Below are positions 46,913 through 47,682 of a stretch of 64,000 nt of DNA, piece after piece; position 1 is the first letter of the stretch, and every line of letters begins with the position of its first letter. Source of the DNA: Nitrosopumilaceae archaeon (GTDB lineage Archaea > Thermoproteota > Nitrososphaeria > Nitrososphaerales > Nitrosopumilaceae). Made by a program: the position numbers and the translations under genes. Under the pieces are notes generated by a model that saw only the letters and a program-made list of their open reading frames with translations, did not search any database and was not told the origin of the DNA. The stretch spans positions 1 through 64,000 of the forward strand of contig JANQNN010000017.1 in assembly GCA_028279545.1 (NCBI GenBank), in the 5' to 3' direction.

Positions 46913-47032
46913 AAAAAAATTTTTAGATAAAATTAAGGGCGTAAACCTCTTTTTTACAGAACTTTGAGAGATTTCCTCCCGTTGTCAGGTCTTTGAATGC
47001 CTGATTGCCTTTTTCGTTCTGCGAGGTTACGC
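46913..47032 (-). ncRNA. Candidate structured RNA (minus strand)
   Basis: Read on the minus strand, GCGTAACCTC (47032-47023) pairs with GAGGTTTACGC (46949-46939, one bulge). CAGAAC pairs with GTTCTG inside it. Between them are a CAGG/CCTG hairpin with a 10-nt loop and a GGGAG/CTCTC hairpin containing a G-U pair possible only on this strand. A T7 run at 46919-46913 could end transcription. No protein frame with a start exists. Family not recognised. Confidence 0.55.
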
Positions 47033-47206
47033 GGTTTTAATCGTCAGATTTTTCAACTAACGACATCAATTACTATAAGAATTTCTAGTATTTAACATTC
47101 TGTATTAAATTTTTTAATTAATTATAATATTTTATGTAAAATTTTTAGACCATGCCCTTTTTACTAACAATAAATTCAGAGGGATTTAGTTAATTTACAA
47201 AAAAAA

Positions 47207-47212
47207 TTTATT
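47207..47212 (+). promoter_or_regulatory. TATA-like box of the candidate RNA at 47234
   Basis: TTTATT preceded by an A-rich BRE-like run, centred 25 bp before 47234, where the outer helix of the predicted RNA begins. Confidence 0.4.
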
Positions 47213-47233: not shown

Positions 47234-47336
47234 TGTTAATTGGCCTGATTGGGAAATATGTTGAATACCTAACGTTTTGTTTCAAATAATTAAACGGTTT
47301 GATGTTTGAAATAGAACTGCTGGGCGCCAATTAACA
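47234..47336 (+). ncRNA. Candidate structured RNA (plus strand)
   Basis: About 103 nt. P1 is a perfect 11-bp helix, TGTTAATTGGC (47234-47244) with GCCAATTAACA (47326-47336). P2 is TTGGG (47249-47253) with CCTAA (47268-47272). P3 is 13 bp, GTTTTGTTTCAAA (47274-47286) with TTTGAAATAGAAC (47305-47317), with two G-U pairs that exist only on the plus strand. A TATA box lies 25 bp upstream, and a separate hairpin plus a T run follows. No known family recognised. Confidence 0.6.
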
Positions 47337-47340
47337 CCTA

Positions 47341-47377
47341 AATTTTTCGTAGGAAAAATTCCAAAATTTGTTTTTTT
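47341..47377 (+). terminator. Hairpin and T-run terminator after the candidate RNA
   Basis: AATTTTTC-GTAG-GAAAAATT, a perfect 8-bp stem, is followed by TTTTTTT at 47371-47377. Confidence 0.5.
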
Positions 47378-47422: not shown

Positions 47423-47682
47423 ATGACAAGAAATATTTTCATTCGCGAAATAATTACCATCCTAAAAGAACCAAAATTGTGTCCTACCTGTAAAAAAGAA
47501 GACAGATTGGAAAAAGAAATAGTACGTGAAAATAGGTCGGGGGGGAAACTATTTTGTGCTCCCGTTGTGAAGCATTAATTGTTATTACAAATCACAATTT
47601 AAAAACCGTGGAACTAGATGCTTTTGATGATTCCATAATTATGTTAAAAGAGCCTCACTTGATACGAAAGGTAACTTATTGA
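47423..47682 (+). pseudogene. Zinc-ribbon gene interrupted at a G7 run
   Basis: Frame 0 from ATG 47423 encodes MTRNIFIREIITILKEPKLC then PTCKKEDRLEKEI, but ends at 47578 (51 aa) soon after the seven G at 47539-47545. Shifting to the -1 frame at that run joins the first CPTC to a second CSRC and continues to 47682, giving one ~86-aa protein with a complete Cys4 ribbon. Either one G is lost (true or sequencing error), or a -1 frameshift at the slippery G-GGG-GGG makes the full protein. Function unknown. Confidence 0.7.

Follow-up and report, generated by a model that had tools for sequence, protein, structure and literature searches.

A conserved three-way-junction RNA downstream of purP in Nitrosopumilaceae, probably a stand-alone small RNA

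Results

The region studied here lies between purP and an HD-domain gene (HD_4) in a window of 64,000 nucleotides, the whole stretch of DNA that was analysed (contig JANQNN010000017.1, positions 1 to 64,000, assembly GCA_028279545.1, Nitrosopumilaceae archaeon). It holds a three-way-junction RNA, which we call RNA1, followed on the same strand by a small zinc-ribbon-like gene, and a second structured RNA, RNA2, on the opposite strand (Table 1). An earlier note on this DNA had described a complete small RNA gene in the gap between purP and the HD gene; the placement was right, but the zinc-ribbon gene and the second RNA had been missed.

Table 1 Features between purP and the HD-domain gene, in window positions.
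Feature	Position	Strand	Basis or remark
RNA2, second undescribed structured RNA	46937-47068	-	between purP and RNA1; fold z, covariation
BRE-like A-rich stretch and TATA-like box of RNA1	47200-47212	+	sequence, 52 relatives
TATA-like AATTTATT	47205-47212	+	22-29 bases ahead of first paired base
RNA1, three-way-junction RNA, 103 nt	47234-47336	+	fold z, covariance model R1, compensatory changes
P1 closing helix, 11 bp	47234-47244 / 47326-47336	+	sequence; 5' arm 99.4% of cells paired
P2 short hairpin (span 47247-47273)	47247-47253 / 47268-47273	+	stem pairs covary
P2 loop, 14 nt, AAATATGTTGAATA	47254-47267	+	nearly invariant
P3 long variable hairpin, 15 bp including G-U pairs	47274-47288 / 47303-47317	+	covariation
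J3/1 junction strand TGCTGGGC, family consensus UGCU[G]GAU	47318-47325	+	column conservation
Hairpin (47341-47348 / 47353-47360) and T7 (47371-47377)	47337-47377	+	not conserved
Zinc-ribbon-like (CxxC..CxxC) small gene, frameshifted	47423-47682	+	two tblastn pieces, two frames

All the parts that had been described from the letters alone are present at this place, including the 11-bp closing helix, the third short helix (P2) and the inner helix with its G-U pairs, which had been given as 13 bp and measures 15 bp (P3), and the model matches, covariation and strand scores described below lift RNA1 above chance. The fold energy of RNA1 is -30.4 kcal/mol compared with -17.0 +/- 3.0 for shuffles (z -4.5), and 0 of 200 shuffles folded as well.

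Other genomes in this archaeal family yielded 21 homologues in a DNA search, and a covariance model, R1, was built from a re-oriented alignment of RNA1 homologues. Run across relatives, as the earlier note had proposed, R1 finds RNA1 in 116 of 250 Nitrosopumilaceae genomes (74 of the 131 of good quality), with full-length matches in genomes of the family; in the window's genome RNA1 is intact, in single copy, and scores 112 bits. Among 300 genomes of the class, the sole match outside the family was a doubtful one (G353, E 0.02), which we rejected as false because it crosses an open frame of the opposite strand. Relatives that keep neither the arms nor the synteny, which the note had named as counting against it, are not what we see: 52 of 80 purP loci carry RNA1 downstream on the same strand. 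Many genera lack RNA1, as do some species of the window's own genus (G001, G002, G003 and G005), and it is therefore not essential.

Standard pairs fill 95.8% of pair cells in 61 distinct type-A sequences, against 86.2% in shuffles and 30–44% in slid controls, and two-sided compensatory changes are found at 20 of 32 pairs in this set and at 27 of 32 over three subtypes, counts that come from model-fitted alignments biased towards the structure. A model-free MAFFT alignment of 22 sequences gives 9 two-sided compensated pairs with 95.7% paired. P1 shows a C-G/U-A exchange at the inner pair and both C-G and G-C at pair 3, and P3, which drifts in sequence and length, has two-sided changes in 13 of its 15 pairs. 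Two unpaired segments of type A, the P2 loop and the junction strand, roughly equal the closing helix in conservation: across the 61 sequences, conservation is 100% at loop columns 22-25 and 30-34 (consensus AAAUA..nUGAAUA), and J3/1 columns 91-94 and 96 are 97–100% conserved. Scores reach up to 117 bits on the forward strand but 16.5-18 bits on the reverse, which identifies the forward strand as the functional one. Positions 47234-47336 thus almost certainly encode a structured RNA.

The inverted repeats at its ends, its several locations across genomes and the presence of two copies in G225 and G268 might instead suggest a mobile or repeat-derived element, or a chance hairpin. However, there is one copy in the window's genome, the position and strand after purP recur across those 52 loci, the inner helices covary, and the sole viral-contig match is a chance one inside an open frame; given the conserved position and the covariation, we regard this reading as refuted. 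Viral carriage was likewise rejected, as the phage-like contig gave this single pattern match and no model match. A peptide was discarded because relatives do not keep the AUG found in the P2 loop of the window, as was a leader or tail of purP, since RNA1 lies 50 to 2300 bp downstream and in some genomes there is room for genes between.

Most type-A copies, of about 103 nt, follow purP. Genus g15 has type B (about 97-110 nt) as an additional copy, close to an S25e-like ribosomal protein gene, and in the g19 genomes read type C (75-82 nt, with a short P3) is flanked by a FEN1-like gene and another, small gene; the S25e-like and FEN1-like labels come from reading the translations. P3 is shortened in type C and replaced in type B, and the gene neighbourhoods of types B and C are unrelated. 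Type B keeps the architecture and has lost the loop and junction sequence, a change with which its partner may differ as well. About 30 bases before type-B RNAs, loci L172, L173, L174 and L184 carry AAACTCTTTATTGATG or AATTCTTTAG, similar to the motif of the zinc-ribbon gene, and type-B RNAs and that gene perhaps share a special promoter.

Upstream of RNA1, 52 relatives show information peaks at -35 to -30 (A-rich, BRE-like) and at -28 to -21 (CATATTTT-like), relative to the first RNA base. The TATA box noted about 25 bp upstream is the AATTTATT of Table 1, and a TATA-like box at -28 to -21, the spacing to the RNA start expected of an own promoter, is kept in 48 of the 52 relatives. In 400 kb of genome G040, TTTAWA is enriched at -30 to -26 before start codons (leaderless genes), which is the same spacing as that of the RNA1 box.

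At the 3' end, the hairpin and T7 described earlier are both present, with the T7 10 bases after the hairpin, but the terminator role assigned to them did not hold, the hairpin being private to this genome. Relatives carry ATACAAACTCTTTT in its place, which goes with the downstream gene no less than with RNA1 and may end RNA1, start the zinc-ribbon gene, or both. Runs of at least four T follow RNA1 in 30 of 52 relatives, a modest excess over the 22 of 52 in an upstream control. The conserved ATACAAA directly 3' of RNA1 is kept in some copies from which the gene has moved (G195, G248 and G256), which makes both the RNA1 3' end and the separate promoter tentative. ACAAACTCTTTT stands before the zinc-ribbon gene even where RNA1 is elsewhere (G067, G195 and G218, with similar sequences in G003 and G226) and is hence, at least in part, a feature of the gene; in G195 it is kept both at RNA1 and at the gene, so that a double role is possible. 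As a general promoter ACAAACTCTTTT was rejected, given that 400 kb of G040 showed no genome-wide enrichment.

The zinc-ribbon gene is intact in relatives, where it encodes 86 aa, and has weak similarity to Pfam families below their cut-offs (DUF6510, Lar and treble-clef). In the window it is interrupted by a frameshift close to a G7 run, either a pseudogene or a sequencing error, beside an intact RNA1. Its position brings in an explanation absent from the earlier note because the gene had been missed, namely that RNA1 is the 5' UTR of this gene, a riboswitch- or attenuator-like cis-regulatory leader in which the T-run is a conditional terminator. In 87 of 105 strong RNA1 copies the gene starts 136-150 nt after the RNA1 start on the same strand, a tight spacing as expected of a leader, which we count against a stand-alone RNA; the T-rich stretch between RNA1 and the gene is conserved, and the invariant loop and junction resemble a ligand- or protein-sensing core.

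The same survey shows that RNA1 and the gene are separable, which argues against a leader. In 18 of the 105 copies the gene is arranged otherwise, several of them clearly unlinked or on the other strand, so RNA1 is not always in cis upstream of it. The gene lies on another contig in G067, G213 and G218 and was not found in the RNA1-bearing G043, G163, G169 and G198, some of which cases draft assemblies could account for, but this does not apply to those on the same contig: the gene is on the opposite strand in G226 and for one copy of G268, upstream of RNA1 in G021, and at a distance of 200 to 4900 nt in the window, G088, G194, G195, G225, G236, G248 and G256. No RNA1 was detected in G003, G030, G033, G046, G062 and G070, though the gene persists there. 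Further points against a leader are that the gene keeps a promoter-like motif, some 36 to 26 bases ahead of its start, where RNA1 lies elsewhere, that displaced or type B and C copies have no consistently following gene family, and that the gene-adjacent copy decays where a second exists, having lost the P1 5' arm in G225 and G268 while the other copy is intact. A leader is accordingly an unlikely reading, and because the gene arrangement varies and the gene has a promoter-like motif of its own, RNA1 is best read as stand-alone and trans-acting.

Two loci show RNA1 partly or wholly lost beside the gene. At L127 (the G155 place), RNA1 has an internal deletion that leaves the TATA box, the first ~22 nt and the downstream motif, either a natural deletion or an assembly fault. 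At L073 (the G062 place), a TATA-like box and ACAAACTCTTTT are kept and RNA1 is replaced by ~26 nt with a possible tiny hairpin.

The Rfam scan proposed in the earlier note was run with Rfam 15 at gathering and relaxed thresholds and gave no family at the locus; the best score was 18 bits, far below gathering. Across the window, Rfam and tRNA scans returned only a tRNA-Asn, away from the locus. As a small, stable-looking archaeal RNA similar in length to H/ACA and C/D guide RNAs, with ACA at the P1 3' end in type A, RNA1 could be taken for an unusual guide for rRNA or tRNA modification. This is very improbable, since the ACA is a paired P1 arm that covaries with its partner (UGU/ACA to UGC../..AGC and GGU/ACC) and no unpaired ACA (ANA) box 3' of a hairpin was found in RNA1; neither alignment A6 nor the column profile contains conserved C (RUGAUGA) or D (CUGA) boxes near the ends, and duplex energies of the loop and junction strands with G040 16S and 23S rRNA are no better than those of shuffles.

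The chance-level rRNA complementarity also weighs against a trans-acting antisense RNA whose P2 loop and junction strand would base-pair to target mRNAs. That these unpaired segments are invariant within an otherwise drifting RNA speaks for pairing, but the loop is AU-rich and would make a weak seed, and type B loses the sequence of both segments and keeps the architecture, which makes antisense action quite improbable.

RNA2 has a hairpin on its 5' side and a closed multi-branch domain, with a T-rich stretch after them in relatives. Its fold z is -4.2 in the window and reaches -6.4 in relatives, 98.6% of pair cells are paired, and 6 pairs show two-sided compensation. The corresponding model, R3, matches in 173 of 400 genomes of the class from 17 genera, often in two copies, and no Rfam family matched RNA2. 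Pairing between the two RNAs (AUUGCU/GGCAAU) was rejected, as it spans only 6 bp and is lost in several g15 sequences.

Discussion

We favour, at a probability of about 0.6, the reading that RNA1 is a separately transcribed, trans-acting structured RNA, a figure that leaves the protein step aside. Judged from the sequences compared here, it is probably transcribed on its own and likely acts in trans, and we tentatively suggest that it binds protein and does not work by base-pairing or by sensing a ligand. Transcription would start at or beside the first base of the closing helix, driven by an own BRE/TATA-type promoter, and the transcript folds, as the covariation shows, into a three-way junction of P1, the short P2 hairpin and the long, drifting P3. 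Together, the invariant loop and junction strand would probably make up a single binding site, with a protein as the most likely partner, and RNA1 would work in trans, either within a small RNP or as a regulatory RNA that binds protein, and not mainly as a cis leader of the neighbouring zinc-ribbon gene. The earlier proposal of a stand-alone small RNA gene outside any described family thus gains comparative support and agrees with the Rfam result, except for its terminator.

RNA1 is new as a family, and a stand-alone structured archaeal small RNA is a known kind. Archaeal stand-alone intergenic small RNAs are short and structured and have their own TATA-type promoter. RNA1 appears to resemble them in being short, structured and placed between protein genes with such a promoter, and it differs in having no Rfam match, in its restriction to Nitrosopumilaceae and in its conserved three-way-junction core. 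With three-way-junction riboswitches and leaders it shares an invariant loop and junction, a drifting helix and a position often just upstream of one gene; unlike them, it has no constant neighbouring gene, the gene that usually follows it has its own promoter-like motif, and no Rfam riboswitch matches. Tan1, an abundant non-coding RNA of marine group II Euryarchaeota (PMC5069720), is also marine archaeal, from an abundant lineage and with a conserved fold, but by its description it is set apart from RNA1, being 229 nt long, from another phylum and discovered by RNA-seq. No earlier description of RNA1 was found in the literature searched, which is weak evidence given that subscription journals were not covered.

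RNA2 is undescribed, more widespread than RNA1 and located in the same gap, and merits its own study. A bolder reading, which we consider doubtful, is that RNA1 and RNA2 are two new families of ammonia-oxidizing archaea, often back to back on opposite strands, and that RNA1 with a protein, perhaps the usually adjacent zinc-ribbon protein, forms a lineage-specific RNP without known archaeal counterpart.

Nitrosopumilaceae rank among the most abundant cells of the ocean and account for much of the ammonia oxidation there, and the literature searched yielded no described regulatory RNA family for them. RNA1 is a covariation-backed gene whose start is predicted and whose invariant nucleotides can be mutated, which makes its existence and role directly testable in cultured Nitrosopumilus.
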